Shown here: positions 10,324-28,218 of the stretch, piece after piece | Layout: every line of letters begins with the position of its first letter | How positions within the stretch are numbered: position 1 is the stretch's first letter | NCBI RefSeq assembly: GCF_015731765.1 | Contig: NZ_VRYY01000734.1 | Span: 1 to 34,519, forward strand | Direction: 5' to 3' | DNA: 34,519 bases | DNA from: Nitratidesulfovibrio oxamicus | GTDB lineage: Bacteria > Desulfobacterota > Desulfovibrionia > Desulfovibrionales > Desulfovibrionaceae | Program-made: the position numbers and the translations under genes | The notes under the pieces: model-generated | Told to the model about the DNA's origin: nothing | Seen by the model: only the letters and a program-made list of their open reading frames with translations | Databases searched by the model: none

Positions 10324-10376
10324 GTGTAACAAATAACACTCTCCATTAATTCAATAGCCAAACAAAGGAGTACGCC

Positions 10377-12674: not shown

Positions 12675-13574
12675 CTATCGTTTCTTTGGGCTGCTCGGGG
12701 CTTGGTAGCCCGGAGCCAGCTTGGCGTTCTCGACGCCGTACAGCGCCAGCGGATCGCTGAGCCACAGGCGGTACTGTTCTTCCTTGAGACGATGGTCGGG
12801 CGAGCAGTCCACGCTCCAGCGCAGCAGCATGTAGCCCGCGACGGCGGCACGAACGCGCATCCGGATCGAGCCGTCGGTCATCCCGTAGTCCATCTTGATG
12901 ATCTCGGGGCGCTCAAGGCGCGGGTGCGGCACGAAGTCCAGCTCGACGATGCGCGTCCACTGGATGTCGTTGTCCGGCCGCTCAAAGGCCTGTGGCTCCT
13001 CGTCGAGCAGCGTTGGCGCTTCGATACGGGTAACGACGAAGTCCCGAAACTCTCCGCTCTTGCGATCAAAGGCTCGGACGTGCCAACGCAGACCGGTGTC
13101 CACCAGGGCAAAGGGCACGATGACCCGCTCGGACTCTCCGCTGCTCATCGAGTGGTAGCGGATGGCGACGGGTCGCTTGGCGTGGATCGCCCGGCAGACC
13201 GGGGCCAACACATCCATCCTGGGATTGCTCAGGGCGGTGGGTGACTCGCACGGCAGCAGCGGCTGCGTTGCGCCGTTCACGCCATCGCCGAAGCCCAGAG
13301 CCAGCGCCGACAGCACGCGCTGCGATGCGTGATCGAACAGAGGGGAGAACGCCTGCCCGATGCGGTAGATCTTGTTGCTGCCGTCGAAGGTGATGTTCTG
13401 CGGCGCGATTTCTCGGTACAGCGCCAAATCGCGTGTCGCCCCTGCCGGAGCCACACCGAAGCGCTCAATCAGGTCTGGGCGACCGATCTCACCGAAGAAG
13501 TAGAGCCGGAAGTCGATGTAGGCCAGCCGCTCGCGCTGGGCGTGGCTCAAGCTCTCAACGCGCTGGGGATGCAT
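12675..13574 (-). CDS. WYL-domain transcriptional regulator (BrxR/CapW-like)
   Basis: A 299-residue regulator with three parts: an N-terminal winged helix (about residues 1-90, with 'ERLAYIDFRLYFFGEIGRPDLIERFG'-type helices), a central WYL ligand-sensing domain (about 120-205, with PVAIRYHSMSSGESERVIVP, then LRWHVRAFDRKSGEF), and a C-terminal WCX-like domain. This layout matches the BrxR/CapW repressors that guard BREX, CBASS and other defence islands and are thought to sense nucleic acid or nucleotide signals. ATG 13574 is preferred over a GTG at 13595 because GGTGAGG precedes it. It is transcribed away from the RtcR-like gene, and the shared 290-bp gap is a natural place for its operator. 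Confidence 0.85.
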   Translation of the reverse strand: MHPQRVESLSHAQRERLAYIDFRLYFFGEIGRPDLIERFGVAPAGATRDLALYREIAPQNITFDGSNKIYRIGQAFSPLFDHASQRVLSALALGFGDGVNGATQPLLPCESPTALSNPRMDVLAPVCRAIHAKRPVAIRYHSMSSGESERVIVPFALVDTGLRWHVRAFDRKSGEFRDFVVTRIEAPTLLDEEPQAFERPDNDIQWTRIVELDFVPHPRLERPEIIKMDYGMTDGSIRMRVRAAVAGYMLLRWSVDCSPDHRLKEEQYRLWLSDPLALYGVENAKLAPGYQAPSSPKKR

Positions 13575-13862
13575 GGTCAGGTGATCCTCACCCACGGAAG
13601 ATGACGGTTAGACCGAAATTGGTTGTTCGATTGCTCATTGCTAGGCAGTTTACATCATCAAATTGATGACATAATACTCTGCGACGGAAGCTGGGGCAAT
13701 GAGGTATGGCGAGTGAATGCCGGGGTAGTGTGAAGTTGATCGGTTTGCGCTCCTCGCCGTCCAGGATTTCGCTTGTCATCAGCCAGCGCCTACGACGCTT
13801 TCCATATGCATATGACCCACGATAGAATGAAATTTATGTAGTCACATAATTTCTTATGCCTG
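13575..13862. promoter_or_regulatory. divergent regulatory region of the defence-like module
   Basis: Two dyads are visible. CATATGCATATG at 13803-13814 is a perfect 12-bp palindrome. GAAATTTATGT (13829-13839) faces ACATAATTTC (13844-13853) with one bulged T, just upstream of the RtcR-like start. Either may be the WYL regulator's operator. No convincing -24/-12 sigma54 promoter was found. Confidence 0.45.
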
Positions 13863-15380
13863 ATGCCCACACTTTTTGCCTGGCTTGGTAACTCAGACCT
13901 TCGCGCCTCGGAAGATGCGTCGGGCACAGACTTCGGTCCCATCTTGATGGCGCTGGAGACCGGGGTGTATGACCGTCTAGTGCTCCTATCAGATCACGGT
14001 CAGCAGAAAACGCAGAACTTCGTGGCGTGGCTGAGCGGCAAATTCACGGGAGCTACAGAGGTGCGGTACGCAAAACTGCGTAGCCCCACCGATTTCGAAG
14101 ACATATACGTCGCAGCCAACGGAGCGGTGTCCGCGACGCTCTCTTCTTCTCCTGAGCTGCCGGTCACTTTTCACGTGAGCCCTGGCACCCCTGCCATGGC
14201 TGCTGTCTGGGTGCTGTTGGCGAAAGCCAAGTACGGGGCCAACCTCATCGAATCCTCTCGTGAACACGGCGTGCGTCCTGTCGTTGTTCCATTCGACCTG
14301 GCCGCTGAGTTCCTTCCAGTTGCGAACAAGCAAGCTGACGAAGCTCTCGCACACCTTGTCCAAGGATTGCCCCCGGCAGCGCCGGAGTTCGCCAGCATCA
14401 TTCACCGCTGCAATGCGATGAAGCGTGTAGTCGCGATGGCGCAGCGATTGGCGCAACGGGATCTGCCCGTATTGATCCAAGGGGAGTCCGGGACCGGCAA
14501 GGAACTCTTTGCACGTGCGATCCACGCTTCCAGCAAGCGAAAAGGCGCTCCCTTTGTTGCAGTCAACTGTGGGGCCATCCCGCTCGAACTGATCGACTCC
14601 GAGCTTTTCGGTCATGAAAAGGGTGCGTTTACCGGCGCCCATGCAACCCGTGCTGGCTACTTTGAGGCAGCTGATGGCGGGACGCTTTTTTTGGACGAAA
14701 TCGGTGAACTGCCGCTGCAGTCACAGGTTTGATTGCTGCGCGTACTCCAGGAGCATGAGGTGACGCGCCTGGGGGCCAGTAAGTCCCGAAAAAACGATGT
14801 GCGCATCGTCGCCGCTACCAACCGAGTTCTGCCGGAAGAAGTTCGGGCGGGGCGATTCAGAGAGGATGTGTTTCATCGAATCGCGGTTGGCATCTTGGCA
14901 TTGCCTCCCCTGCGCGCTCGCGAAGGGGACCTCAATCTATTGATCGACGCTTTGCTGGCGCAGATCAATCGCGAAGCAACTTCCCAGCCGGGCTTTAAAC
15001 ATAAGACATTATCTGTTGGCGCAAGAAATCTTCTTCTTCGCCGCGCCTGGCCGGGCAATGTGAGGGAGCTGCACAACGCGCTTTTGAGGGCGTCCATCTG
15101 GGCGCCAGGAGAGGAGATAGCCACCGAGGATGTCGATGAGGTTCTCTCGCTCACAACCACCGGCACCGACGACGCCATTCTCGGGGCTGCAATTGGCGAG
15201 GGGTTTTCGCTGCCTGACCTGATGGCAGATGTAGCCCGGCACTACTTGGATAGGGCCATGGAGCAGAGTCGTGGCAACAAGACTGAGGCAGCGAAGCTGT
15301 TGGGTCTTGGCAGTTACCAAACTTTGACGAATTGGTTGCTCAAGTACCAGTCCAAAAAAGCTGGCACGGATGGTGCGTAA
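13863..15380 (+). pseudogene. RtcR-like CARF sigma54-dependent activator with an in-frame TGA
   Basis: Together the two halves make a 505-codon RtcR-type regulator. The N-terminal part (about 1-170) looks like a CARF/Rossmann ligand domain, with [18 protein letters not shown] in the place of the TGTH motif of E. coli RtcR. A sigma54 AAA+ domain follows, with Walker A GESGTGKE (from G207), GAFTGA (254-259) and Walker B FLDEIG (D278). The C-terminus has a Fis-type HTH, GNKTEAAKLLGL. Codon 290 (14730-14732) is TGA, between LPLQSQV and LLRVLQE, where relatives have Lys or Arg. A single C-to-T change of CGA explains it. Both halves are otherwise intact, so the loss is recent, or the base is an error. 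A truncated product would lack sensor II and DNA binding. Normally such proteins activate genes by opening sigma54 promoters upon ligand binding. Confidence 0.85.
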
Positions 15381-15413
15381 GCATAAGAACTTTTATGAAT
15401 TGGAGGCTGGATC

Positions 15414-16232
15414 ATGGGGTTTGCCAAATACCAAGAAGACATCGTGAGTCGATACGTCGGCGATCTCGCGATGCGTTCCATCAAGGTGCCGGTTTCACCA
15501 CCCAAGCCCTCAAGCCCGAATGCCAAAAATCAACCTGATCAAAGGACAAAGAAGATGAGCAGTCTCAAAAAATTCGCTGTCGCCACGCCCCGGCCTCTCC
15601 CCGTGATCGTCTTGGCTGACACAAGTGGCAGCATGGGGGAGAACGGCAAGATCGAAGCGCTAAATGCTGCGATGAAGGACATGGTCTCGACTTTCGCCAA
15701 GGAAAGTCGTTTGCGCACCGAGATCCAGGTGGGCCTGATCACCTTTGGTGGCAAGGCGCAGATGCACTTGCCATTGGTTGCGGCACATGGCGTCGCAGGG
15801 TTCTCGGAATTTAAGGCAGACGGTGTCACGCCGATGGGTGCGGCATTTGATCTCGCGCGTCAGTTGCTGGAGGACAAGGATCGCATCCCCTCCAGAGCCT
15901 ATCGCCCCGTCTTGATTCTGTTGTCTGATGGACAACCGACCGACGACTGGGAGGCTCCTTTCAAGGCTCTTTGCGACTCCGAGCGGGCACAGAAGGCGAC
16001 CCGGCTAGCTATGGCGATTGGGCCGGATGCCGATGAAGCAATGCTGAAGGATTTTGCGAACGACGTAGAGGCTCCTATTTTCAAGGCCCACAACGCCCGG
16101 GACATCCACCGTTTCTTCCGTGCAGTGACCATGAGTGTGACCACTCGCACGGCAAGCCAAAATCCAGACATCTCAACCGCATTCGTTGTCCCGCCGCCGG
16201 ATGACGACGCACTGGACCTCGACTTCCAATGA
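15414..16232 (+). CDS. TerY-like von Willebrand A (VWA) domain protein
   Basis: A 272-residue protein with a single VWA domain (about residues 60-235). Its metal-ion-dependent adhesion site is complete: D69-T-S-G-S (DTSGSMGE), T139 in GVTPMG, and D172 in LLSDGQPTD. In the Ter stress systems, TerY forms a conserved triad with a PP2C phosphatase and a zinc-ribbon kinase (TerY-P), which is exactly what follows here. GGAGG lies nine bases before the ATG. This gives a 45-residue polar N-terminal extension not seen in short TerY; an internal ATG at 15555 is the alternative. Its stop overlaps the phosphatase start by 4 bases. It is the first gene of a seven-gene run. Its likely role is metal-dependent scaffold or phosphorylation target. 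Confidence 0.88.
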   Translation: MGFAKYQEDIVSRYVGDLAMRSIKVPVSPPKPSSPNAKNQPDQRTKKMSSLKKFAVATPRPLPVIVLADTSGSMGENGKIEALNAAMKDMVSTFAKESRLRTEIQVGLITFGGKAQMHLPLVAAHGVAGFSEFKADGVTPMGAAFDLARQLLEDKDRIPSRAYRPVLILLSDGQPTDDWEAPFKALCDSERAQKATRLAMAIGPDADEAMLKDFANDVEAPIFKAHNARDIHRFFRAVTMSVTTRTASQNPDISTAFVVPPPDDDALDLDFQ

Positions 16233-16933
16233 GGTTTATTGCCTGCGGCGCGAGCGTCATTGGCCCCCGACACCGGGATCTGGGCGAGCCTAATCAGGAC
16301 GCGATGGTTCTGGCGGGTTGCCGAGGTGGCTGGATTGCGGCTGTGGCAGACGGATTGGGATCGAGAGCACGTAGTGATCTGGGGGCACGTAGTGCCTGCC
16401 AAGTTACCCGGCGGATCTTGCGCGCTACATCGAGCAGTTTCGATCTGCCGGCAACGCTGCCCTTGATTCATCAGCAATGGCTTGAAGCGATCGTTCCGAC
16501 AACTCCTCGAGACGCCGCGACCACGCTGCTGTTCGGCCGCGTGACAGATCAAGGCGAGGTCCATGCAGCCCAATTGGGTGATGGTCTTCTGCTGGTGAAA
16601 TGCGCTGGCGAGTTCCGTCGCATCACGCCAGAGCGCACAGCCTATGGCAATCAGACTTGGGCACTTGAGTCCACGCACCTGCAGGACAAATGGAGCTGTA
16701 CGAAAGGCCGATTCACCGAGCCGGGTGATGGTGTTGTCTTGATGACAGATGGCGTGGCCGATGACCTCGAACCTGCACATCTTGCCGACTTCTTTGATGC
16801 GCTTTACCAAGACTTAAGCGCTCGAAATCGGCGCAGAGGCAGACGCTGGTTGCAGTCTGAACTGAATGACTGGGCGACACCCTTACACAGCGACGACAAA
16901 ACACTCGTGGCCATTTTTAGGACGTCTGAATGA
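16229..16933 (+). CDS. PP2C-family serine/threonine phosphatase
   Basis: A 234-residue PP2C (PPM) phosphatase expected to remove phosphate from Ser/Thr with two Mn/Mg ions. The metal ligands are readable in order: GEPNQDAM, VADGLGSRARSDLGA, RDAATTLLFG, QLGDGLLLV, VLMTDGVADDL and SDDKTLVAIF. It is the compact form without extra domains. It overlaps both neighbours by 4 bases (ATGA), so its dose is tied to the VWA protein and the kinase. In TerY-P triads this enzyme opposes the kinase. It is soluble and cytoplasmic. Confidence 0.9.
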   Translation: MRFIACGASVIGPRHRDLGEPNQDAMVLAGCRGGWIAAVADGLGSRARSDLGARSACQVTRRILRATSSSFDLPATLPLIHQQWLEAIVPTTPRDAATTLLFGRVTDQGEVHAAQLGDGLLLVKCAGEFRRITPERTAYGNQTWALESTHLQDKWSCTKGRFTEPGDGVVLMTDGVADDLEPAHLADFFDALYQDLSARNRRRGRRWLQSELNDWATPLHSDDKTLVAIFRTSE

Positions 16934-18357
16934 GCACAGCAACACCAGAGGCACCAAAGAAAAACAGGACGGTGCTGGACCAACACGGTCAGTCCTATGA
17001 ACTGACAGGGCGTATCGGCGAAGGCGGTCAGGGGATCGTTTGCACGACCAACTACCCAAATGTACTCGTCAAAGTCTCTCGCGCAACCACAGAAGAAAAG
17101 CGAAACAGTTGGACGAGCAAGATTCGCGCACTTATGCGTCAGCCACTTGAGGGCCTTCCTATCGCTCATCCACAAGCTCTTATTACGCAGCCGCAGCCCG
17201 GCTACGTCATGGAACTGATGGATGGACTGGCCCCAATGACTGAACTGATGCAGGTGGCGACGGACGCCTTGATGTCAGATGAAGGCCTCTCGGGCTATGT
17301 GAAGACAGGCGGTCTGTTGCGCCGGTTGAAGATGCTCGCGCGACTGGCTCGGGTCCTGGCGGAGTTGCATGGCCGAGGACTCGCCTATGGCGATCTTTCT
17401 CCTGCAAATGTCTTCGTATCGCAGTCACTAGAGTACGCCGAAGTCTGGTTAATCGACGCCGACAACGTTGCGAGTCAGTCGCGTGACGGTCAGCAAGGTG
17501 TATTCACCCCCGACTACGGGGCTCCAGAGATTCTGAGGGGAGAGTCCGGCATCAATACACTGACCGACAGCTGGAGTTTTGCGGTCATGGCGTATCGCAT
17601 CCTCACGCTGGTTCACCCCCTCAAGGGGGACGTTGTGCTTGAGGGTGAACCCGAGCGTGAAGAGGCAGCCCTCCGCGGCGAACTCCCTTGGGTAGATCAC
17701 CCAGTTGATCGCAGCAATGTCTTGTCGATAGGTCTGCCTCGCGAAATCACGCTCAATGCGCCACTGCGTGCGCTGTTTGAACGATGCTTCAATGCCGGGC
17801 TGAACAATCCGGGTGAGCGGCCAAGTCTGAATGAGTGGGCAGATGCCTTCGAGGCTGCCACAGGCCATTGCGATCAATGCGAGTCTTGCGGCAGCACGTT
17901 TTTCTACACCTCGAAGCACATCTGTCCATTTTGCGATCACGCCCAGGACACGAATCGCACGATCCTCTTGCAGGAATATCGCTATATGCCTCCGGATCTG
18001 CTCCGGGAGGGCTTGCCGGAAGATGTTCCAGAGTCGTTGATTCGAAAAGAGTGCTGGACTCGCACAGGCAAGGCGATGGTTTTGAGTATGAGCCCTGCCG
18101 AGTTAAAGACTTTGCCTTTGGGGACGTCCCTGTACGCGGATGCCCGTCCGCTATGCACTGTCGAACTTGCTCAGGATGGGTTGTGGATAGAGCCATCAGT
18201 CGGTACGCAAGTTTCCTTGCAGAGAGCATCTGATGACAAAGTCGTCGCGGTTGTGCGTCGTCAGCGGCTCAAGTCAGACAGTCGTTCAGGAGTGTCTTTC
18301 TGGCTCCACCTAGGCGCAGTAGAAGAAGAGCACGTCGTTTGGCGTTTCAATTGGTGA
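16930..18357 (+). CDS. serine/threonine protein kinase with C-terminal zinc ribbon (TerY-P type)
   Basis: A 475-residue kinase. The N-terminal kinase domain (about 22-305) has glycine loop GRIGEGGQG, Lys48 in VLVKVS, and a catalytic loop of the form YGDLSPANV with D155, so the usual HRD is YGD. The metal-binding DFG is replaced by DAD (176-178), and an APE-like YGAPEI follows. A zinc ribbon, CDQCESCG...CPFC, covers about 313-336. A further 130-residue beta-rich domain closes the protein (SMSPAEL...WLHLG); it could be FHA-like but I cannot prove it. Kinase plus zinc ribbon next to VWA and PP2C defines the TerY-P triad. The helicase begins 8 bp later. Substrates are probably the downstream machinery, by inference. 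Confidence 0.9.
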   Translation: MSTATPEAPKKNRTVLDQHGQSYELTGRIGEGGQGIVCTTNYPNVLVKVSRATTEEKRNSWTSKIRALMRQPLEGLPIAHPQALITQPQPGYVMELMDGLAPMTELMQVATDALMSDEGLSGYVKTGGLLRRLKMLARLARVLAELHGRGLAYGDLSPANVFVSQSLEYAEVWLIDADNVASQSRDGQQGVFTPDYGAPEILRGESGINTLTDSWSFAVMAYRILTLVHPLKGDVVLEGEPEREEAALRGELPWVDHPVDRSNVLSIGLPREITLNAPLRALFERCFNAGLNNPGERPSLNEWADAFEAATGHCDQCESCGSTFFYTSKHICPFCDHAQDTNRTILLQEYRYMPPDLLREGLPEDVPESLIRKECWTRTGKAMVLSMSPAELKTLPLGTSLYADARPLCTVELAQDGLWIEPSVGTQVSLQRASDDKVVAVVRRQRLKSDSRSGVSFWLHLGAVEEEHVVWRFNW

Positions 18358-18364
18358 GGCAACG

Positions 18365-21300
18365 ATGAATCTCTGCGACTTTCCTCTTCTGTCGGGTGAA
18401 CTTGCCCAGTTCACTTGTGACGATCTAGGTGCCGATTGGCAGATTGGTGAGGCCGTATCAGTACAGGCACACGGCCATGACTATCTCCTCCGCCAGGGCG
18501 ATTCCGTCTGCGTTGGCAAAGCAGAAGGTCGCCAAGATCGAACTGCGCTTCAGGTCCAACGAGGTCTGACGTTGTGGGTGTTAAGAAATCGACATGGAGA
18601 TGTTCTCCAACTTCAATCGCTGGATTTGGTCGAGCAGATCCAGCTGGATATGGCGATTTCTGTTGATGAGGCCATTGCGGAGCAATTGGTCAGCAGAGGG
18701 GAGATTTCTGCTCCGGACGTACCCACTGCAGTTGGTTGGTTGAATGAGCAATTCATCTCTGCCGAGAAAGCACCGAACCCAGAAATGGATCGTGTTTTTC
18801 TTGGCCGGTTCGACAACGCTTCCGATGAGAGTTTCGTTCTGTTTGGTGCAGGCTGGCGCGGCAACGTCAAACGAGATGCTGGCGTGCTGAAACTGATGAG
18901 CGTCACTCGTCTCAAGGGGGCTACAGCACGTGTAGCGATGGCCGTTGGCAAGATCTCTTTCCAAGATGCCAGTGTCGCCGTGCGTCTCCAGAGTACAGAG
19001 CAACGCGCACTTTTGGATGCCGCGCTGCGCGACAACGGCAGCTACCTACGTTTATGGCAAGAGTATGGTGCGCTCGAATGGGAGCAGGCTCGAGATTGCG
19101 CGAGGGAACTGGGTTCTCTTCGTTTCAAGAGTGCGGAGCTCGTCGAAGGTGAACTGTGGGCATGGTTTCTAAAAGTTGATGCTGATCATCTCAAGGATTT
19201 CCGGAAACGATGGAAAGCTTTGGGGCTGGCGAACACGACGCAAGTGGAGCTTGGGGATCGGGAGCTTGATCTTGATTCCGAGGTTGAAGACGCGCCGGAC
19301 AGAGCTGATCGAGCACGCCGTCGCCCGGTTCGTGGTGTATTACGGTTCGAGCGAGAGGGTGTGGTCTTGGTTCCGAGCCAGGATCGGCGTTCAGAACGCC
19401 CCCCAACCAAGGGGTTCATCTACTACTCGCTATCAGGTGATGAAGCCGTACAGACACGTCGTGCGCGCGCAAGGCAATCTATCAATGAAGGGCGGCGACT
19501 GCCGCAACTGAGCTACTTGCTGGAAGGGGTGGCTCCGCCAAGCGCCCGGCGACGTCAGCTCGACGGCTTATCCACCTACGCCAAATCTTGCTTCAAGGGT
19601 GTTCCGACCAAGCGCCAGATTGAGGCGCTGGAGAAGGCGATAAATACACCTGATATCGCACTCATCGTTGGCCCACCAGGAACGGGCAAGACCCAGGTCA
19701 TTGCAGCTTTGCAGCGGCGCCTTGCCGAAACACTCGGTGAAAACTCGCTGCAGCACCAAGTGCTGATTAGCAGTTACCAGCACGATGCAGTCGATAACGC
19801 CCTGAATCGTGCTGAAGTCTTTGGCTTGCCTGCCGTTCGAATTGGCGGCCGAGGGCGCCGTGACGAAGGCGGTGTCGACCCCGTTAGTGTTTGGTGTGAA
19901 CGCAAACGGAAAGAAATCTCAGTTCGACTCGACGCGATTCGGCTGAATGAGCCGCTGACTCAACCATTGGAAGAGCTGGATCGACGTATCACAGCATTGA
20001 GACTCGCGAGCATGTCGGCACAGGAACGCCAAACACAGTTCGAGCAAATTGATGTCCTTTTGCGTCAGCTGTTCGAGCTAGATATTCGTCTTCCGGCCCA
20101 TATTAAGGACCGATGGGATGAGTTTCTTGCTCAGCAGAAAAGAGTCGAAACCCAGCGTCAGGCCAATGAGCCTGCTGGGCTTGTGCGCTTGGTGAGGGCC
20201 CTGCGCACCAGTTCTATTGGGTTCGCCGACGACGGTCCGGACAGAGTTCACCAGCTCGAGCGTACGCTGCGACGTAACAAGGGCAACCTTAATGATTCGG
20301 AATGGAGCTTGCTCCAGCGTCTTTCAACGGTTGCCGATGCAACAGAAGCAGATCTTGCTGAATTGGCCGCGTTTAAGCAGTCCATGCTGGATCGACTTAG
20401 CCCCGATTACAGGCCCCCGCAGCTTAAGCAGGCGTTGAGCGGAGAAGCGCTCGGGCTCTTGGCCGAGATCGAGCACGCAATCGATGCGCCTTTACGCCAA
20501 TCTCGCCGTGGCATCTCTGCGGTAGTGGCCTCGTACCAGGCGGCACTTTACCAAGCCCCCAATGAGGCAGCTAGAGCGGTCCGCGAGTACGCCAGCATTG
20601 TCGGTGCGACATGCCAGCAGTCAGCTAGTAAGGCGATGAGCAGCTTGAAGGAGTTGAGCGACCTAGATGCATCAGAAGGAATTGAATTCGACACGGTTGT
20701 CATTGACGAAGCCGCAAGAGCGAATCCTCTCGATCTTTTCGTTCCAATGGCGATGGCGCGGCGTCGCATCATCCTGGTCGGCGACCATCGACAACTGCCT
20801 CACCTTGTTCAGCGAGAGTTGGAAGATGAACTCATTTCCAGGCAAAGCCTGACTGAGGCTCAAGCGAAGGCGTATGAGCAGAGCCTTTTTGAGCGGCTGG
20901 TAAAGCAGCTTAGAGAGCAAGAGAAAGTCGACAACATCAAGCGCGTGGTGATGCTCGATACGCAGTACAGAATGCATCCGACACTGGGTGACTTCATCAG
21001 CAAACAGTTCTATGAATCTGAGGGGTTGGACGTCTTGCACTCGGGGCGACCTGCGGAGGATTTCGCTCACACGATTCCTGGCTACCAAGGCAAATGTGCG
21101 GCTTGGTTGGATGTGCCTCTGCAGGACGGGAAAGAAAGATTCCTAAAACCCGGTTATGAAAGACGGGCGGAGGCAATTTCTATTGCAAAAGAGGTTAAGC
21201 GGATTGCAGATTCTTGTGGGCCGTCGCTGAGCATTGGGGTCATCAGTTTCTACCGCGCCCAGTGTGACCTGATACTTGATGCACTGGCTGACGAGGGCTT

Positions 21301-21679
21301 GGCAGAGGAAGAGGATGGGGAAATCCGGATCGCGCGCTCCTACCGGCAGACTGAATCAGGTGATGAGCGACTGCGCGTCGGCACGGTTGACGCGTTTCAA
21401 GGCAAAGAGTTTGACCTCGTCTTTCTGTCCGTAGTGCGAGCTAACGACGTGGTGATTCCCGATCACAAGGAAGGGGAAGAGCGCGAACGATTGCTAAACA
21501 GCAAGTATGGACACTTACGGTTGGCAAATCGCATGAACGTGGCGATGAGTCGCCAGAGGAAGCTCCTCGTCGCCGTCGGTGCCAAACACATGGCCGAAGG
21601 GCCCGAGACCGAGGAAGGTGTCCCAGCCCTGGCTGCATTCCTCAAGCTTTGCAGAGAGGAGATGGCGCATGGCCGCTGA
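18365..21679 (+). CDS. superfamily 1 helicase of the UPF1/DNA2-like class
   Basis: An 1104-residue ATPase. The first 410 residues are a large unassigned N-terminal region with a charged stretch (about 285-320). The helicase motifs are complete: Walker A GPPGTGKT (436-443), motif II VIDEAA (D781, E782), motif III GDHRQLP (806), QYRMHP (around 868), motif V VDAFQGKE (1008) and motif VI MNVAMSRQ (S1062). A 300-residue helical insert separates motifs I and II, as in DNA2/UPF1 relatives. No nuclease domain is seen. It follows the kinase by 7 bp and overlaps the next gene by 11 bp. Such enzymes unwind DNA or RNA 5' to 3'; here it probably acts with the McrBC-like pair. Confidence 0.9.
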   Translation: MNLCDFPLLSGELAQFTCDDLGADWQIGEAVSVQAHGHDYLLRQGDSVCVGKAEGRQDRTALQVQRGLTLWVLRNRHGDVLQLQSLDLVEQIQLDMAISVDEAIAEQLVSRGEISAPDVPTAVGWLNEQFISAEKAPNPEMDRVFLGRFDNASDESFVLFGAGWRGNVKRDAGVLKLMSVTRLKGATARVAMAVGKISFQDASVAVRLQSTEQRALLDAALRDNGSYLRLWQEYGALEWEQARDCARELGSLRFKSAELVEGELWAWFLKVDADHLKDFRKRWKALGLANTTQVELGDRELDLDSEVEDAPDRADRARRRPVRGVLRFEREGVVLVPSQDRRSERPPTKGFIYYSLSGDEAVQTRRARARQSINEGRRLPQLSYLLEGVAPPSARRRQLDGLSTYAKSCFKGVPTKRQIEALEKAINTPDIALIVGPPGTGKTQVIAALQRRLAETLGENSLQHQVLISSYQHDAVDNALNRAEVFGLPAVRIGGRGRRDEGGVDPVSVWCERKRKEISVRLDAIRLNEPLTQPLEELDRRITALRLASMSAQERQTQFEQIDVLLRQLFELDIRLPAHIKDRWDEFLAQQKRVETQRQANEPAGLVRLVRALRTSSIGFADDGPDRVHQLERTLRRNKGNLNDSEWSLLQRLSTVADATEADLAELAAFKQSMLDRLSPDYRPPQLKQALSGEALGLLAEIEHAIDAPLRQSRRGISAVVASYQAALYQAPNEAARAVREYASIVGATCQQSASKAMSSLKELSDLDASEGIEFDTVVIDEAARANPLDLFVPMAMARRRIILVGDHRQLPHLVQRELEDELISRQSLTEAQAKAYEQSLFERLVKQLREQEKVDNIKRVVMLDTQYRMHPTLGDFISKQFYESEGLDVLHSGRPAEDFAHTIPGYQGKCAAWLDVPLQDGKERFLKPGYERRAEAISIAKEVKRIADSCGPSLSIGVISFYRAQCDLILDALADEGLAEEEDGEIRIARSYRQTESGDERLRVGTVDAFQGKEFDLVFLSVVRANDVVIPDHKEGEERERLLNSKYGHLRLANRMNVAMSRQRKLLVAVGAKHMAEGPETEEGVPALAAFLKLCREEMAHGR

Positions 21680-23132
21680 CCGCTATCTTTGCTTCGATGT
21701 CCGTCGCCCCCCGGGTGGGCGGCCGCTCTTGTGGCCTGTCCGCGTTTGGAAGGTTCTTTATCCAACAAATCGTGTCCTCAAGTTGAACCTGTTCCAGCAG
21801 GCGATCCTTGGACTGGCAAGGGCCAGATGCCAGGACAGTTCGGAAATGGCTGAGTTGCTGGGGCTGGACCGAGAACTGGTGGCATTCATCATTGCAACCC
21901 AACTGATCCCGAACGGCTGGATGACCACCTCGGGATCAGTCACCTCTCAAGGTGAGCGTGTCCTCGAAGAGGCTCAGGATGCCAGCGAGGAAGTCCGCAT
22001 GGGGTACGCATATCAGGACGCGATTTCGGGGAACTGGCTGCCGCGATTCACTGAAGAGCTTCCAGAGATCGAAGCGAAGCGAGTCGATGAACGTGGTTAC
22101 CCAGTGTTCCTGCGAGACCTCGATTCCGGAAAGGAGGATCGCCCCTTCCGCCTCAATCACTTCCGAGAGGACGCACTGGATACAGCGGCCCTCTTTGATG
22201 CGTTTCAGCGCTATCGGACGGATCATGACCACGCCAAACAGCGTGATGACGAGCTTTCGGCACGTGTCCGTATTGACAGCCTGAGCTTCGTCGAAGATTC
22301 GGCGCAGCCGATGTGGTTGTGGACATGGATCTTTCCAGACGAGGCAGGGGCACAACCCTGGTTGGTTGCCGATCCGTTCGGGTTGCAGCAGGCTGCGTCG
22401 TGGTTACGCAAACCCCTGCAGGAAGTCTTGCCGCGAAACGATGGACTTGCAAGATACATCGCTGACGCGGTGGGTGAGACAAGATCGAACGATTTATCGG
22501 CAGAGGAGTGGCTCCGATCCCTGGAGAACCAGATCGACTTGACACTGCTTGCAGACTACAACTGGTCGCGGAAGGTGCCGATTGTTGAGGGATACCTCGC
22601 CAGCGTTCTGAGACGAAGATCCGTGCTGGCCAGTCAGGAGAGGTCTTGGCAGGAGGATGTGACTAGCCTTCTCATTGAGACTCACAACCTGGCAGAAAGC
22701 GTGCTGCAGTGGCTGTTGAAGCAATTTTCCGTTGATGTCCGCAGACTCCCAGATAGAAGCCAAGATAACAAGTGGACGAAGGAAATCGCCGTACAAACAC
22801 TGCAGGCGCTTCCGATAGCACAACTCGATGACGAATTAGTTCGACGCCTTGCGTCACAGAATTTGCGAGAGATTAGAAATGCGCTGATCCGAGGCAATAG
22901 CTCACTGAAAGCTCTGATGTTTGCTGCACTGCTTTCTACCATCGAGCACTCCGATCACCCCTTCCTCAAGCTATCCGCTGATGAGCTTCGACTGACTCGT
23001 CTGCTTGATATGGCAGATGCTCGCAACAAAAAAGCCGGGCATTCAGGTAGCGAGAGAATCGATATAGAAGAATCCATGGAACACGCTGACTTTGTCATCG
23101 AATGGGTTCAAATTTTTAAGGGCTGGTATTGA
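21669..23132 (+). CDS. unrecognised protein of the module, possible N-terminal winged helix
   Basis: A 487-residue soluble protein I cannot place in a family. The ATG at 21669 lies inside the helicase end (11-bp overlap), so coupling is tight. A possible winged-helix segment (about residues 35-85: FQQAILGLARARC, AELLGLDRELVAFIIATQL, GWMTTSGSVTSQG) resembles the DNA-binding or adaptor domain of DUF-type defence proteins. The middle has WLWTWIFPDEAGAQPWLVADPFG, reminiscent of a nuclease-associated beta sheet, without visible catalytic residues. The C-terminal 200 residues are helical. It sits between helicase and McrB-like ATPase, so it is probably a structural or loading subunit of their complex. 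Confidence 0.8.
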   Translation: MAADRYLCFDVRRPPGGRPLLWPVRVWKVLYPTNRVLKLNLFQQAILGLARARCQDSSEMAELLGLDRELVAFIIATQLIPNGWMTTSGSVTSQGERVLEEAQDASEEVRMGYAYQDAISGNWLPRFTEELPEIEAKRVDERGYPVFLRDLDSGKEDRPFRLNHFREDALDTAALFDAFQRYRTDHDHAKQRDDELSARVRIDSLSFVEDSAQPMWLWTWIFPDEAGAQPWLVADPFGLQQAASWLRKPLQEVLPRNDGLARYIADAVGETRSNDLSAEEWLRSLENQIDLTLLADYNWSRKVPIVEGYLASVLRRRSVLASQERSWQEDVTSLLIETHNLAESVLQWLLKQFSVDVRRLPDRSQDNKWTKEIAVQTLQALPIAQLDDELVRRLASQNLREIRNALIRGNSSLKALMFAALLSTIEHSDHPFLKLSADELRLTRLLDMADARNKKAGHSGSERIDIEESMEHADFVIEWVQIFKGWY

Positions 23133-23133
23133 A

Positions 23134-25506
23134 ATGGCAAAACACAATAAGGGGAACAAAGCCCCAGTCGCGCAAAACGCAAATACTGCACAAAGTGCGG
23201 TCGCGTCGGCATGGCAGAAAGCAACTGCTGGAATTGGCTCCCTTGCATCGCTGGTGCAAGGCGATGCTTCCGCTGTGGCACTCCCCGACTTGGAGAAAGA
23301 TCAGGTCAGCGAGTTGGATAAGGCAGAGCCCGAGAAAAAAATCGAGCTCGAGAGGTTGTTGGCGGATATCTCTGATGTCGCAAAGAGAGTTCGTGATCTA
23401 CATGAAGACGCACAGAAGCGCACCGATGACTTGGCTCGCAAGGAGGAGGCATTCTCCCGCCGAAGTGATGAGAACAAGAAGCGAACCGAAGAGATCAACA
23501 AACTCGACGAAGAGTTGAAGCAAAGACAAGTTGAGATAAAGAAATCCGAATCAAGTTTGGCCGATAAGGAGCGTGAACTTGAGAAGCGAGAACTGGATGC
23601 GCGTTCCGGTTTTGCCGCCCAAAACGTGGCCGCACTCAGTGATCTCAAGAAAGAAATCGTGGAGCTCGAGTCTAGGAAGACTGAAATTCAACTCGGCATC
23701 CTTCAAGCGGAGCAGAAAGCACGTGACGATGAGTCCGCGCGCGCATCCGAAGTGATGGAACGTGAAGCGGAGATTGCAAACAAGGAGAGATCTCTACAGC
23801 AGCAGCAACGGCGACTAGATGCAGAGTGGAAAGAGCTTGAGCGTGAACGGGTACAGATCCGCGAAGATTCACTTCGCGAGGCCAGTCAGGAAATTGCCAG
23901 ATTGACCGATGCTCGACTACGCGCAGAGGCACGCCTTGAAAAGGTTTACCGCGATTGGACATTGACTGAACAGAAACTAGAGCAATACCAGGAGTTCTCA
24001 GAGGCATTGGCAGGGAGGTCTGCCCGCGAGATACTTGACGAGTTGGCTGCCCAAAAACGTCGAGTCACTCAATTGGAAAACCAAATTGCAAACAGCCAGG
24101 ATGATCAGTTGCAATTTGAGAACGAGGCGCTGCGAAAACTCCGTGATGAGCAAAAGGCTCAACTCGACGAGGTTCATTTGGATTTGGCTGATGCAAAAGC
24201 TCAGCTTCATCGCCTCCGCCTCGGCGTGAGTGACAAAGAGAACCTGGAAAGAGAAAAGCGCGCCCTGGAAAAGAACAATCAGATCTTGAGTGCAAGGCTC
24301 AATGACTTGGGCAAAACGGTAGATGACCTAACCCAGTCACAGCAATCTGAGAAGCCGTTCCCTCAAATGGCATGGATGGATTCCGCATCCACTGCCGATT
24401 GGATCAAGGATCGCAAGGCCAAGGAGTTGAGCCTGCCGGAGCAAGACGTTCCTGATCTGAAAAAATTCTCGGTTGAATTGCAGCACCGGATCGCTCAAGC
24501 GGAGGAAGGCGCGATGCTGCATTTCCGCCTAGAAGATATTCAGTTGCTTATTGCCGGGTTGGCCATGAGCCAGCTTCACATCTTTCAGGGAATCAGCGGC
24601 ACAGGCAAAACAAGCTTGGCGAAGGCATTTGCAAAGGCTGTCGGGGGGCATTGCACTGACATCGCCGTCCAGGCTGGCTGGCGAGACCGTGATGATCTAC
24701 TGGGGCACTACAACGCTTTCGAAAAGCGCTTCTATGAGCGCGACTGCCTGCAAGGTCTCTACCGTGCGCAAACTGCCGCTTACAAGGACCGGTGCAACAT
24801 CATCTTGCTGGACGAGATGAACCTGTCGCGCCCGGAGCAGTATTTTGCTGAATTCCTCTCGGCGCTCGAAAAGAATGACCCAATAGATCGACTCATCAGT
24901 TTGTCGGAGAGCCAGTTGCCGAACGCCCCAGCGCTGCTGGTCGAGGGGCGAAGGATTCGGGTTCCCCACAACGTCTGGTTTGTAGGCACTGCTAACCACG
25001 ATGAAACAACGAACGAGTTCGCTGACAAAACCTACGACCGTGCTCATGTCATGACGCTTCCCCGCCACGAAGCGGGATTCAAGGTGGAGCCAAAGCCGAA
25101 GGCCAGCTTTAGCTATGGATCTTTGATGGAGCGATTCGATGCTGCTGTGACACAAAACGCTGATGAGGTTTCAGAGTTGTTGGCGGAGTTGACCACGGGC
25201 CCGCTCACGAGCATCTTGCAGGATCGTTTTGACTTGGGTTGGGGCAATCGACTCGAACGTCAGGCCATGCGATTTGTCCCTGTTTACATGGCTGCCGGCG
25301 GTCGCAAAGAAGATGCTCTGGACCATTTGCTTGCCAGCAGAGTATTCAGGCGCGGGAAGGTCACTGGTAGATACGATGCGACCATCGATGATCTTGCCGC
25401 CATCGAACAAGCGCTGACCACAGTATGGAAGGGGTGGAAATCGGAGCCTCGCCGTTCCATTGCCTTGTTGGCTGAAGACCGTCGCCGCAAGGAACGTGGG
25501 GCATGA
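23134..25506 (+). CDS. McrB-like AAA+ ATPase with long coiled coil
   Basis: A 790-residue protein. Residues about 60-420 form an almost unbroken charged coiled coil (repeating EEINKLDEELKQRQ-type heptads). The C-terminal AAA+ domain is of the McrB/MoxR type: Walker A GISGTGKT (486-493), Walker B NIILLDEMNLSRPEQYF (D560, E561), the McrB sensor GTANHDETT (from G618), and a DRAHVM segment in the sensor-II region. McrB itself hydrolyses GTP; this motif fits either nucleotide. McrB's N-terminal methyl-DNA-binding domain is missing, replaced by the coiled coil. The start follows the previous stop by one base and the stop overlaps the next ATG by 4. Alternative larger frames starting at 23092 have no support. 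Confidence 0.9.
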   Translation: MAKHNKGNKAPVAQNANTAQSAVASAWQKATAGIGSLASLVQGDASAVALPDLEKDQVSELDKAEPEKKIELERLLADISDVAKRVRDLHEDAQKRTDDLARKEEAFSRRSDENKKRTEEINKLDEELKQRQVEIKKSESSLADKERELEKRELDARSGFAAQNVAALSDLKKEIVELESRKTEIQLGILQAEQKARDDESARASEVMEREAEIANKERSLQQQQRRLDAEWKELERERVQIREDSLREASQEIARLTDARLRAEARLEKVYRDWTLTEQKLEQYQEFSEALAGRSAREILDELAAQKRRVTQLENQIANSQDDQLQFENEALRKLRDEQKAQLDEVHLDLADAKAQLHRLRLGVSDKENLEREKRALEKNNQILSARLNDLGKTVDDLTQSQQSEKPFPQMAWMDSASTADWIKDRKAKELSLPEQDVPDLKKFSVELQHRIAQAEEGAMLHFRLEDIQLLIAGLAMSQLHIFQGISGTGKTSLAKAFAKAVGGHCTDIAVQAGWRDRDDLLGHYNAFEKRFYERDCLQGLYRAQTAAYKDRCNIILLDEMNLSRPEQYFAEFLSALEKNDPIDRLISLSESQLPNAPALLVEGRRIRVPHNVWFVGTANHDETTNEFADKTYDRAHVMTLPRHEAGFKVEPKPKASFSYGSLMERFDAAVTQNADEVSELLAELTTGPLTSILQDRFDLGWGNRLERQAMRFVPVYMAAGGRKEDALDHLLASRVFRRGKVTGRYDATIDDLAAIEQALTTVWKGWKSEPRRSIALLAEDRRRKERGA

Positions 25507-27326
25507 TATTTCTGGACCGTCTTACGGGTAGCAAACTCAGCCGCCTACCCGACGCGCTTCTGCCGGGGCGGTATTGCTTGCTTGAGCCACTCGTGGTCAA
25601 TGGACACAGCCGCTTGCAGCCCGGCGATCTGCTCTCGGATGACGGATCGGGCGTCCTCCGGATTCAAGACACTGAATCCCAGGTGCTCACTATCGATCAG
25701 TCTGACGACGATCAGGCGGACTCCGATCTGTCTGCAGAGGCGATTATTTCCATTGCCGGAAAAATCGCTCACGCACATGATGCAAATGTCTCGCCCATGC
25801 TGCCCGCTGAGATGGCCGCCCAATGCACGCTCGAAGATCTCGAGCGCGACTTGGCGGCGGTACTCAGAGATGGTCATCTGCATTCAATATCTGACCGCCC
25901 CCGCAGAGACCTTCGATATGACGACTTGGTTGCGCCAGTGGCGCGAGCTCGACGCCTCGCGACTTCGGCATTAAGTCACCTGGCATCACACTCTGATTGT
26001 TGGCAGCAGCGTACGCTCAGTGGTGTTCAACCGCGCAAGGTTCTTGCACGTTTCAGCGAGGACGACTATGCCATCTATGAGAACAGACTCTACAAGCGGC
26101 TACTAGATCGCCTTGATCGACACCTTGCTAGGAGATTGGCTCGCATACGGGGAGTCAATTCACGACTGGAGCGAGCTTTGGAGTTCCAGGACTCTGAGCA
26201 GACGCATTTTCGACTTCGCCAGGATATCTGTCGCCTTTGGGGGGAGTCATATCTTGATGACAAGACCGGGATGCAGTTGGAGGCAGGAAAGCGTGCACTC
26301 AGCGACTTGGAGTCCCAGTTGCGTGCAATCAGAGGGTTGAAGCAAAGGGGGCTTTATTCGCTGGTGCCTCCTGCATCTGTGGTTCCTGCCCAAGTTCACC
26401 GGACAAACATTCTCAACCACGACCCGCACTATCGTCATCTGCCCCCGCTTTGGGAGAAGTTGAAAGATGATCGAGAAGACCGGCTCTTACCCCCGGAAGA
26501 GCGCTTGGCGCGGCAACTGCAATTGCAACTGGCTTACGTCGGTTACGTTGGCCTTGTGATCAGGCGGGCGCTTGAACGGTATGGTCTGCGCAAGGTTGAT
26601 GGAAATTTCGTCTTCAGTTGGGCGGGACGGCGTTTCGTACTACGGCGTGATGTACATGATTGGGTCGTAACTCAGTCTGAGGGATCTACTCTGAGGATCG
26701 TGCCGATTGCCTGGTTCGGCGCGTCAATAAATATCAGTGAGAGTCTGGAGCCTGATCGCATCGTGTGTTGGCCAGGCGTGCCAACCAGTGTCGCATCGCC
26801 GCGGAGTCTTCCTGTCTCACCGCTGGACCTTTATGTCGTGGAGAAGGTGGGGAAGTTGATCGATGAGTGGATGTTGCGGCAGTTGCTCCAAGGTCATGGC
26901 CGAAAACTGGGGCCGTTGCCGACGCCGTCCAAAAAGCTAACCGAGGCTTGGCCGGAACAGTTTGAATCTGTTTCGTCTACCCACGTCAGGATCCTCGCGC
27001 CAGTCGATGCTCAGAAAGCAGCCGAACTGAAGGCTTCTCTCAAAGGTTCAGCTAATTCGCAAGTTGAGGACGCCGTCGGGGATGCCATCGAACAGATCGC
27101 TGCGCTTGCCCAACTTTGTGGACATCCGGCGCGATTCGAGCGCGGGCAGCAGCAGGATTTCTACTGTCAATGCGGAACTTGCCAGGCAACTTGGTCGCTC
27201 AAGACAACAGGGAAAAGGCGACACTTTTCTATGCGGCCGAAGGGGGCATCTGCCATACCAGAAGATGACGGCTTTCTTTGGTCTGGGAGGGATTGGCTGG
27301 AGTTCGATTTGGGTTCAGAACAGTGA
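25503..27326 (+). CDS. McrC-like DUF2357-type partner protein
   Basis: A 607-residue protein. The DUF2357-like signature YENRLYKRLLDRL starts at Y192, in the helical domain typical of partners of McrB-like ATPases. The N-terminal 100 residues look like a beta-sheet domain. The C-terminus carries cysteines C539, C555, C557 and C560 (FYCQCGTCQATW) that could hold zinc. Classic McrC has a PD-(D/E)xK nuclease; I see no clear D...ExK motif here, so either it is diverged or the protein only regulates. It overlaps the ATPase gene by 4 bases and ends the seven-gene run. A terminator follows at 27431. Confidence 0.8.
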   Translation: MIFLDRLTGSKLSRLPDALLPGRYCLLEPLVVNGHSRLQPGDLLSDDGSGVLRIQDTESQVLTIDQSDDDQADSDLSAEAIISIAGKIAHAHDANVSPMLPAEMAAQCTLEDLERDLAAVLRDGHLHSISDRPRRDLRYDDLVAPVARARRLATSALSHLASHSDCWQQRTLSGVQPRKVLARFSEDDYAIYENRLYKRLLDRLDRHLARRLARIRGVNSRLERALEFQDSEQTHFRLRQDICRLWGESYLDDKTGMQLEAGKRALSDLESQLRAIRGLKQRGLYSLVPPASVVPAQVHRTNILNHDPHYRHLPPLWEKLKDDREDRLLPPEERLARQLQLQLAYVGYVGLVIRRALERYGLRKVDGNFVFSWAGRRFVLRRDVHDWVVTQSEGSTLRIVPIAWFGASINISESLEPDRIVCWPGVPTSVASPRSLPVSPLDLYVVEKVGKLIDEWMLRQLLQGHGRKLGPLPTPSKKLTEAWPEQFESVSSTHVRILAPVDAQKAAELKASLKGSANSQVEDAVGDAIEQIAALAQLCGHPARFERGQQQDFYCQCGTCQATWSLKTTGKRRHFSMRPKGASAIPEDDGFLWSGRDWLEFDLGSEQ

Positions 27327-27388
27327 CGGTGGCCAAATCGTCGAATCCACGCCCTCAAGGCCAAGGTGTTACTATCTGGCTCTGAAAG
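27327..27388. other. short spacer at the end of the defence-like module
   Basis: Only 60 bp between the stop of the DUF2357 gene and the tRNA-like fragment; nothing else is seen. Confidence 0.3.
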
Positions 27389-27421
27389 CGGACGCGGGTT
27401 CGGTTCCGTGTTCCGCCACCA
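27389..27421 (+). other. degenerate tRNA-like 3' end, probable attachment-site remnant
   Basis: GGACGCGGGTTCGGTTCCG followed by TGTTCCGCCACCA has a T-loop-like GTTCGGTT, a CCGCC acceptor strand and a CCA end, as in tRNA-Ser or tmRNA 3' ends. It is not intact: A58 of the T loop is G and the T-stem pairs poorly. It also folds as GCGG ACGCGG / CCGTGT t CCGC. The fragment directly precedes an integrase gene, which favours an att site. Confidence 0.4.
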
Positions 27422-27430
27422 ATTTGGAAG

Positions 27431-27474
27431 AAAGCCTTACCTTTTGGCAACATGCTGGCAGGTAAGGCTTTTTT
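27431..27474 (+). terminator. rho-independent terminator of the defence-like operon
   Basis: AAAGCCTTACC (27431-27441) pairs perfectly with GGTAAGGCTTT (27461-27471) and is followed by TTTTC. An 11-bp stem plus a T run is a strong terminator. Confidence 0.85.
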
Positions 27475-27482
27475 CTTTGCCC

Positions 27483-27510
27483 TGCTCCATTCAACTGTTA
27501 CAGTGGAGCA
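27483..27510. promoter_or_regulatory. inverted repeat before the truncated integrase
   Basis: TGCTCCA (27483-27489) and TGGAGCA (27504-27510) are exact inverted 7-mers, 14 bases apart, and end right at the candidate ATG (27511). It could be an operator or a translation-blocking hairpin. No ribosome site is clear. Confidence 0.4.
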
Positions 27511-27519
27511 ATGGAAGCG

Positions 27520-27845
27520 ATGCCCAAACACCCTCGCCTTTTCCGTCGTGGTGCCACCTACTACCACCGCGCAGTCGTCCCCCAAGACCTGAAGGCCACC
27601 TACCCCAAGACCGAAGAAACCTCCTCCTTGAAGACCACCGACTACAAGGAAGCCCTCAAGCGCGTCCGCATCGCCGCCGTTGAGGTTGACCGCCGGTTCG
27701 AGGCGCATCGCCGCATGCTTGCCGAGAGCGGCACCAAACCCCCACTCAAGGAACTGGCTGATTCCGACATCAAGCGCGTGGCAGATGCCTACTTCGCCAA
27801 CCTGCTCGAGGAGGACAAAGAGACACGGCTTCAGGGCTTGGTTGA
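27520..27845 (+). pseudogene. truncated tyrosine-recombinase integrase (N-terminal stub)
   Basis: The stub begins MPKHPRLFRRGATYYHRAVV, the N-terminal beta-hairpin domain (DUF6538 type) of integrases that use tRNA or tmRNA sites. It continues with LKTTDYKEALKRVRIAAVEV, the usual arm-binding helices. It ends after about 108 residues near LQGLVDEW, where sequence of an IS3-like element begins, so the whole catalytic domain is missing. Two ATGs are possible (27511 and 27520). The gene sits directly after a tRNA-like fragment, the standard att-int order, and points away from the defence module. It therefore probably belonged to a second, tandem element. Confidence 0.8.
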
Positions 27846-28218
27846 CGAGTGGAGTAGCCCCCATTTGGACCGGACACCCCGCCAACGACAGGAGATAGGT
27901 CTAGCCCTATGCCCAGACCTAGTGCTAACGGGGAAGCTGTGCTGGAGGTGTTGACCAAAGCCCAGCGTCGACGCTGGGCTTTGGCGAAGAAGGTTCAACT
28001 GGTCCAGGAGTCGTTGCAGCCGGGGATGAACGTCTCGTACGTCGCCCGCAGAAACGGCCTTCTCCCAGCCAATTGTTTCGCTGAAGGAAGCTCATAACCG
28101 ACGGAGGCAAGACCGCTGTCCAGCGGATGGCCAGGTCGTCGGAACCGGGGAGGGCCGGCGCTCAAGGAGCGGATTCGGGAGTAGGATCGGCTTCTGCACA
28201 AGAAGGCGATAGCAGTGG
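27846..28218 (+). mobile_element. decayed IS3-type OrfA remnant
   Basis: 27909 starts an OrfA-like frame: AVLEVLTKAQRRRWALAKK, then VQESLQPGMNVSYVARRNG, the HTH of IS3/IS66-type OrfA. The frame breaks at FAEGSS, but the sequence continues in other frames as GGKTAVQ, DGQVVGTGE and ALKERIRE-stop-DRLLHKKAIAVE, the leucine-zipper end. At least two frameshifts and one stop are needed, so it is dead. No inverted repeats or OrfB are found. The left border cuts the integrase stub. Confidence 0.75.

Follow-up and report, generated by a model that had tools for sequence, protein, structure and literature searches.

CoCoNuTs are bacterial anti-virus systems that are predicted to cut RNA (Bell et al. 2024, eLife, PMC11090510). 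Their Type II usually consists of a TerY-P triad together with CnuH, CnuE, CnuB and CnuC. CnuH is a UPF1-like helicase carrying SmpB-like, RNase-toxin-like and OB/stalk domains, CnuE combines a winged helix-turn-helix (wHTH) with a HEPN domain, CnuB is a coiled-coil GTPase with an NxD motif, and CnuC is a DUF2357 protein with a dead nuclease, for which an inactivated nuclease fold, an N-terminal beta-sandwich and a zinc ribbon are expected; an RtcR homologue is frequently associated with Type II systems (PMC11090510). A later classification by the same group places Druantia I and II, which are known to protect against phages, in Type IV of the CoCoNuTs (PMC12458937), and Mokosh is described as degrading viral transcripts (PMC11291487). 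The window, that is the whole stretch of DNA analysed here, comprises 34,519 nt of Nitratidesulfovibrio oxamicus (positions 1-34,519 of the forward strand of contig NZ_VRYY01000734.1, assembly GCF_015731765.1, a draft of 818 contigs). Between positions 15414 and 27326 it carries seven open reading frames (ORFs) on the plus strand, coding for a VWA protein, a PP2C phosphatase, a kinase with zinc ribbon, a superfamily 1 (SF1) helicase, a wHTH protein, a McrB-like AAA protein and a DUF2357 protein. Because the genes and their sequence along the DNA agree one by one with those published for Type II, we consider it probable that the locus is a Type II CoCoNuT (TerY-P triad, then CnuH, CnuE, CnuB and CnuC) standing under an RtcR-type CARF activator and working in the way proposed below. 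The seven genes are as follows.

15414..16232, plus strand: VWA protein, TerY-like (Pfam VWA; MIDAS residues conserved)
16229..16933, plus strand: PP2C phosphatase (Pfam PP2C_2, E 4.9e-40)
16930..18357, plus strand: Ser/Thr kinase with C-terminal zinc ribbon (Pfam Pkinase; conserved catalytic residues and Cys)
18365..21679, plus strand: CnuH, UPF1-like SF1 helicase (Pfam AAA_11/AAA_12; relatives UPF1/NAM7 and SEN1)
21669..23132, plus strand: CnuE, wHTH plus HEPN RNase-like putative effector with R452 and H458 (AlphaFold2 model; wHTH Z 11.7; residue conservation)
23134..25506, plus strand: CnuB, McrB-like AAA protein with NxD motif and a long charged coiled-coil-like region in front (AAA_5; N621-x-D623-E624)
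25503..27326, plus strand: CnuC, DUF2357 McrC-like protein with a nuclease-dead region and a Cys cluster (Pfam DUF2357; AlphaFold2; McrC fold match)

An earlier note on this DNA had placed seven genes here, and all of them lie on the plus strand at that place, with Pfam supporting the VWA, PP2C, kinase, helicase, AAA and DUF2357 assignments. As starts we used the ATG at 21669 for gene 5 (GTG 21579 in the ORF list) and the ATG at 23134 for gene 6 (TTG 23092 in the ORF list). With these starts the junctions from gene 1 to gene 7 are an overlap of 4, an overlap of 4, a gap of 7, an overlap of 11, a gap of 1 and an overlap of 4 nucleotides. The overlaps of 4, 4, 11 and 4 given earlier are thus right, and the description of the genes as following each other without gaps is nearly so, apart from the gaps of 7 and 1; the conclusion drawn from them, one complex made in a fixed ratio, is not established by overlaps. 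All seven frames are open in the window, and an eighth gene in front, 33 bp upstream of the VWA gene, codes for an RtcR-type CARF-AAA-HTH regulator.

For the triad Pfam finds VWA (E 1e-13), PP2C (5e-40) and protein kinase (7e-12), and the zinc ribbon of the kinase appears in Pfam below the cut-off only. The residues of the VWA metal ion-dependent adhesion site (MIDAS), D69, S71, S73, T139 and D172, are conserved among 36 sequences; the kinase keeps K48, D155, N160 and D176 as well as C317, C320, C332 and C335 in 37-38 of 38 sequences, and several Asp residues of the PP2C protein are conserved. The PADLOC TerY model matches weakly (E 0.006). Architecture and active-site residues support the predicted TerY-P make-up of the triad, in agreement with the earlier note. 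A tellurite-type TerY-P system was dropped as a candidate, no ter gene being named among the window proteins scanned. The VWA frame of one relative (L008:2323-3141) has a stop at codon 13, and an ATG at codon 20 could still serve as a start.

The helicase CnuH matches AAA_11 and AAA_12 in Pfam (E 4e-34 and 3e-37), and its best solved relatives are UPF1/NAM7 and SEN1 (best E 2.6e-17), DNA2 being also in the list. For CnuE Pfam gave a sub-threshold wHTH match only. In the AlphaFold2 model of this protein (pLDDT 84.8, pTM 0.47) residues 35-105 form a winged helix, matching the MarR-type structure 3nrv_B with VIA Z 11.7 and a root-mean-square deviation (rmsd) of 1.6 over 70 aligned residues. Towards the C-terminus there is one HEPN R-x4/5-H motif, with R452 present in 35 of 38 sequences and H458 in 38 of 38. 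The winged helix that had been suspected in gene 5 is therefore borne out by the fold, and the protein, which had been called unrecognised, is CnuE with its wHTH-HEPN arrangement. Neither CnuE nor CnuC has a Foldseek match under E 0.001; that other families are absent from these match lists is uninformative. No CnuE relative was found in 50,697 phage records or in one viral-contig scan, the latter made with six short patterns by which close relatives only are detectable, and carriage by phages was rejected on these grounds.

CnuB is matched by Pfam AAA_5 (E 1e-5) and has its NxD motif (N621, D623, E624) in 39 of 39 sequences; a sequence search of the PDB gave no match. Its residues 1-420 show a hydrophobic period of 3.4-3.6 and weak SMC and ATG14 matches, and from residue 43 they consist to 44-57% of E, K, R, D and Q. 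In some windows up to 49 of 300 shuffles reach the same periodicity, and a window from the AAA part scores equally. CnuC, a protein of 607 residues without an Hsp70 match by Pfam, matches DUF2357 with E 8e-6 (25.6 bits against a curated cut-off of 23.3), and a PDB sequence search gave no convincing match (DksA, E 0.046). The AlphaFold2 model (pLDDT 87.8, pTM 0.85) has strands at residues 3-61, and its best fold match is McrC (6ut5_G, Z 9.0, rmsd 5.0, 141 aligned residues); McrC 6hz4_M matches with Z 8.8 over residues 105-454, but with an rmsd of 16.1. Within the nuclease-like region (residues 363-480) 41 sequences agree at 80% conservation only in P401, P440, E447 and P473. E447 is the sole acidic or Lys column at this level, and no conserved D/E..K set of the PD-(D/E)xK type was found in this region among these sequences. 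Cys 539, 557 and 560 are conserved.

Taken together with the published description (PMC11090510), the locus shares with Type II CoCoNuTs the seven genes and their order, the NxD CnuB, the nuclease-dead DUF2357 CnuC, the UPF1-like CnuH, the wHTH-HEPN CnuE and an RtcR gene upstream, and differs in its broken regulator and in a HEPN motif that is one residue longer. Type III-A CoCoNuTs have TerY-P, CnuH, CnuE and CnuB in common with it, but their CnuE contains two HEPN domains and they have an Hsp70-type CnuCD, whereas here there is one HEPN motif and the CnuC of 607 residues; HEPN count and CnuC content led us to reject this identity. Canonical McrBC likewise has a McrB-type AAA protein and a DUF2357 partner, with McrC being the best fold match of CnuC, but it carries NxxD where the present sequences have NxD (39/39), the nuclease residues are not conserved here, and the partner genes differ.

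The likeness to Mokosh type I is of another kind. A single PADLOC model, MkoA, extends over two proteins of the operon, with the kinase at model positions 8-282 (E 5.7e-10) and the helicase at 348-1082 (E 8.9e-94). CnuE is matched in its wHTH part by the MkoB model (E 3.4e-7). For the kinase, the MAD6 kinase model scores a little higher than MkoA (9.4e-12). MkoA is one protein, whereas here kinase (16930-18357) and helicase (18365-21679) are separate, and the Mokosh models contain no CnuB or CnuC, VWA or PP2C. Other genomes match the C-terminal half of MkoB in two stretches, which we take to be a PLD nuclease, whereas here a HEPN region stands instead. Mokosh type I thus looks, from these model matches, like a fused version of a kinase-helicase-wHTH chassis. 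Mokosh is not mentioned by Bell et al. (PMC11090510); the MkoA match ties kinase and helicase to a system that is said to degrade viral transcripts (PMC11291487).

The earlier interpretation is partly supported by these comparisons. It was right in outline, since a phosphorylation-switched nucleic-acid-processing defence system is also what the literature predicts (PMC11090510), and wrong in its claim that no system with this seven-gene content had been described, as this content is that of Type II CoCoNuT.

With CnuB as query we looked at whether the four-gene half occurs without the triad, a search that reaches relatives of at least 35% identity only. It gave 38 loci from named genomes, to which four plasmid loci were added (42 in total). 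All seven genes are present in the same order and on the same strand in 36 of the 42 loci, i.e. in 36 of the 38 with enough sequence, counting L008 despite its early VWA stop and L022 despite a CnuC cut by the contig end. The six exceptions lie at contig ends (L012, L019, L043, L044) or are internally deleted (L018, L041), and we therefore conclude that the order is not due to chance. L018 is without the end of rtcR, the VWA gene, the rest of CnuH, CnuE and the front of CnuB, and L041 keeps only the tail of CnuE, the two ends of CnuB, and CnuC; these deletions are either real decay or an assembly artefact. Two circumstances named in the earlier note as speaking against one system are thus not seen: among CnuB relatives the downstream genes do not usually occur without the triad (36/38 have it), and no linkage to housekeeping genes appeared, the neighbours including varied defence genes. 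Among 63 neighbouring ORFs PADLOC finds RtcR, LeoBC, DruH, a Type I restriction enzyme, DrmD and PDC-M26B, each of them in at most 2 of the 63 (best 25 of 167 families), and no Pfam family occurs in more than 5 of 63, the top one being Dynamin_N (best 25 of 126 families). On a Polaromonas conjugative plasmid Zorya zorA is annotated about 11 kb from the CoCoNuT (L004:29037-30436).

Azospira sp. I13 (L007) and a Burkholderiales bin (L008) have counterparts of all seven window proteins with 88-99% identity. A CnuC match was found in 1 of 348 genomes of the host class (the host only), in 13 of 395 genomes of the L007 family, drawn evenly from a larger group, and in 4 of 399 of the L011 family, some of these matches being fragments. 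As the host class has a CnuC match once in 348 genomes, while the L007 family alone exceeds 395 genomes, we infer that the near relatives stand outside the host class and that transfer crossed classes. No DNA match of 13863-27326 was obtained in E. coli at megablast sensitivity.

A comparison of seven near operons (the window, L007, L008, L009, L010, L011 and L062) and the plasmid operon L003 showed that two stretches do not follow the rest of the operon.

22760..23000, plus strand: exchanged block of CnuE, front part of the HEPN region, about residues 364-445 (about 80 residues; drop in nucleotide identity)
26500..27300, plus strand: exchanged C-terminal half of CnuC (likeness of L009 and L011)

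In the CnuE block the window is 54-56% identical at the nucleotide level to L007, L008, L062, L011 and L010, against 86-99% before it and 89-95% after it. L009 has a related but distinct block, with 65% nucleotide identity to the window and 50-51% to L007, L008, L062, L011 and L010. For CnuC the N-terminal part is 82-88% identical among the seven near operons, and between 26500 and 27300 L009 and L011 share 95% of the nucleotides with each other but 57-60% with the six other operons. The window combines block 1 with C-type 1, L007, L008, L010 and L062 combine block 2 with C-type 1, L009 has a block 1-like sequence with C-type 2, and L011 has block 2 with C-type 2. Since block 2 is found together with either C-type, and C-type 2 together with two different blocks, the segments must have moved separately; if the blocks of the window and L009 are taken as one class, all four combinations exist.

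A fast intrinsic clock of the CnuE block was considered and rejected, because in ordinary pairs the block and the remainder of the protein change at about equal rates. For pairs at 30-40, 40-50 and 50-70% CnuH identity the mean identity is 26, 35 and 52 in the rest of CnuE and 22, 32 and 49 in the block. Ordinary pairs give, block against rest, 67 and 65 (L030/L040), 53 and 55 (L013/L014) or 69 and 61 (L007/L016), and in some of them the block is clearly lower (L033/L042, 55 and 68; L017/L024, 50 and 61; L017/L021, 70 and 80). The block being not generally faster, the fall to 48-49 beside 96-99 in CnuE is best explained by exchange. The C-terminal half of CnuC is generally faster-changing, and there only the likeness of L009 and L011 speaks for exchange. 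A donor of the CnuE block of the window was not found, the best candidate being L009 with 67% over 83 residues, and plasmids giving 48% and 35%. The kinase of L011 (L011:3797-5266) has a different, 14-residue-longer segment at about residues 101-165, which may be another block that was exchanged, the third. Bell et al. (PMC11090510) use no word with the stem 'recombin', 'mosaic' or 'swap'. We tentatively suggest, knowing that the odds are somewhat against it, that two segments, the front of the HEPN region in CnuE and the C-terminal half of CnuC, serve as exchangeable specificity cassettes. They would face fast-changing phage molecules (targets or inhibitors) and be swapped separately between islands by recombination, while motors and phospho-switch stay constant.

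How the system would be switched on depends on the region in front of the operon.

12678..13595, minus strand: WYL-domain regulator gene (Pfam WYL, E 1.5e-14; divergent from rtcR)
13863..15380, plus strand: RtcR-type CARF - sigma-54 AAA - HTH activator gene, interrupted by an in-frame stop (PADLOC RtcR_PspF2)
15362..15376, plus strand: element like a sigma-54 promoter of the -24/-12 type, in front of the VWA gene and within the end of the rtcR frame (sequence pattern)

Following Bell et al. (PMC11090510), infection or an anticodon nuclease would produce RNA ends with 2',3'-cyclic phosphate, which would be sensed by the CARF domain of RtcR. RtcR would then drive the -24/-12 promoter at 15362-15376, where the element itself is seen, and the operon would be made. 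The VWA/PP2C/kinase triad may set a phosphorylation switch on the helicase-effector pair; a direct contact between kinase and helicase would fit, since one MkoA model spans both. CnuH would bring CnuE to RNA, which the HEPN site would cut, halting phage translation, host translation or both. CnuB as an NxD GTPase and the nuclease-dead CnuC would act as an RNA-sensing motor and not as a DNA cutter, and the outcome would presumably be abortive.

Several observations weigh against this assignment and the working proposed for it. Of the 36 complete loci, only 16 have an RtcR-type gene upstream in the same orientation within the stretch covered, and in two of these (L035, L038) it shows by partial matches. 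The count is a lower bound, since for most loci the sequence reaches only about 2 kb ahead of the VWA gene; in L021 the gene is divergent and in L026 and L027 it lies downstream of CnuC. In the present genome the regulator gene is broken. Among 18 loci examined, 6 have the promoter element: a loose pattern places it at the same position in L003, L007, L008, L009 and L011, L010 and L016 have near-matches by eye, L020 has one elsewhere, and the other 10 of the 18 have none. Its conservation is in any case not independent evidence, because in the near relatives it is inside the rtcR frame. The HEPN motif is R-x5-H in the window and its near relatives, one residue longer than RxxxxH, and 3 of 38 CnuE sequences are without the Arg. 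The best fold row for the HEPN end, Roquin (4txa, Z 9.0, rmsd 3.1, 121 aligned residues), a protein with HEPN domains, is under the Z of 13 below which helical folds call for caution, and the Foldseek rows for Csm6 are weak (E 0.63 and worse). The coiled coil of CnuB is no more than suggested by composition and weak periodicity. For CnuH the assignment is based on its helicase relatives and its place next to CnuE, and no experiment on a Type II CoCoNuT was found in the literature searched, as far as it was available to us.

The broken regulator also bears on the state of the operon in this genome. RtcR_PspF2 matches the two parts of the gene with E 1.2e-110 (N part) and 2.6e-78 (C part), and the stop is at 14730-14732. 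The full frame is open in 6 of 6 near relatives, and 16 of the 16 loci looked at have a sense codon at the stop position. This led us to reject an alternative code or programmed readthrough, and a plain nonsense change, or an error in the draft assembly of 818 contigs, is simpler. In rtcR there is a mosaic too, as the window, L008 and L011 are 98% identical and these are 82-86% identical to L007 and L062. Other rtcR matches in the host genome cover the AAA part only, so that the only CARF-bearing copy found is the interrupted one; activity of the operon in this host is therefore doubtful, and it may be silent or otherwise driven. That the operon is here a decaying passenger with a truncated regulator, which would be compatible with its being a Type II CoCoNuT, appears rather unlikely to us. 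The stop, the internal deletions of L018 and L041 and the early VWA stop of L008 fit with decay, but the seven operon frames are open, the WYL regulator is also present, and in a draft of this kind the stop could be a sequencing or strain variant.

A DNA-restriction machine, with CnuB and CnuC working on modified DNA in the manner of McrBC, the helicase unwinding it and the HEPN activity being secondary, seems improbable. The kinship to McrB and McrC, the closeness of the CnuE wHTH fold to MarR-type DNA binders and the ability of SF1 helicases to act on DNA would favour it, but the nuclease-like region of CnuC has no conserved acidic/Lys set in 41 sequences, the nearest solved helicases are the RNA helicases UPF1 and SEN1, though DNA2 is also listed, and the HEPN motif is conserved.

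The island that carries the operon has its left edge at a partial tRNA gene (6741-6799, minus strand; Rfam 29.2 bits, just over the cut-off, reading like tRNA-Met) adjoined by a tyrosine recombinase gene (6989-8161), where the GC content falls from 65-69% to about 46%. An SNase-like nuclease with an Ada-type zinc domain (minus strand) and a YagK/YfjJ-type replication protein (plus strand) are cargo at 9245-10970, an IS1595-family transposase with perfect 19-bp inverted ends lies at 11574-12297, and two island proteins (8158-9198 and 29793-30569) have no Pfam match at E 0.01. A COG3860 RNA motif (Rfam RF02940, 67.4 bits) is found at 4328-4382. The WYL gene precedes rtcR in 3 of 6 near relatives, with 98% identity in L008 (L072), 97% in L011 (L074) and 91% over a partial match in L009, and was not found in the upstream stretches examined of L007, L010 and L062 (L070, L078 and L077); the left end of the island therefore varies. 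Behind CnuC lies a further feature.

27389..27440, plus strand: sequence like the 3' end of ssrA (transfer-messenger RNA, tmRNA), a probable attachment site (direct comparison with ssrA genes)

It is identical in 44 of 52 columns to the 3' end of the host's own ssrA and the sequence downstream, and the score cut in this comparison was passed only by the host's own ssrA, not by that of the L007, L008 and L011 genomes. Rfam gave no tmRNA match at 27300-27500. Similar sequences stand directly behind CnuC in L008, L041 and L066, about 1.5 kb further on in L011 and at 4-6 kb in L009, and the search found none in L007, L010, L062 and L003; the true ssrA lies before the sequence on the same contig, at about 33 kb in the L008 genome and about 106 kb in the L011 genome. 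In the window the ssrA end is followed by a terminator-like hairpin (together 27389-27475) and then by a short frame with an N-terminal DUF6538 (27511-27954), which may be read as a truncated integrase, perhaps marking a second, damaged integration module after CnuC. The ssrA sequence could be taken for a functional link to tmRNA, but as ssrA is a common island integration site this may mean nothing. Less probable still than DNA restriction is for us a stress or RNA quality-control system outside defence (related to TerY-P/tellurite or to tmRNA/RNA repair), since the patchy spread (1/348, 13/395 and 4/399), the plasmid locations and the defence-gene neighbours stand against it, even though a connection with tellurite resistance has been made for TerY-P, and one with RNA repair for RtcR (PMC11090510).

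Type II CoCoNuT as a set of genes is already in print; this locus adds the pattern of module exchange, the in-frame stop of the regulator, the ssrA sequence behind CnuC and the MkoA model that covers kinase and helicase. No experimental location of the phage-facing surfaces of a CoCoNuT was found in the literature searched, as far as it was available to us. The near operons, alike in most genes but with unlike CnuE and CnuC blocks, are a natural experiment on phage specificity, and if the suggestion of exchangeable cassettes is true, the sequence points to two such surfaces.

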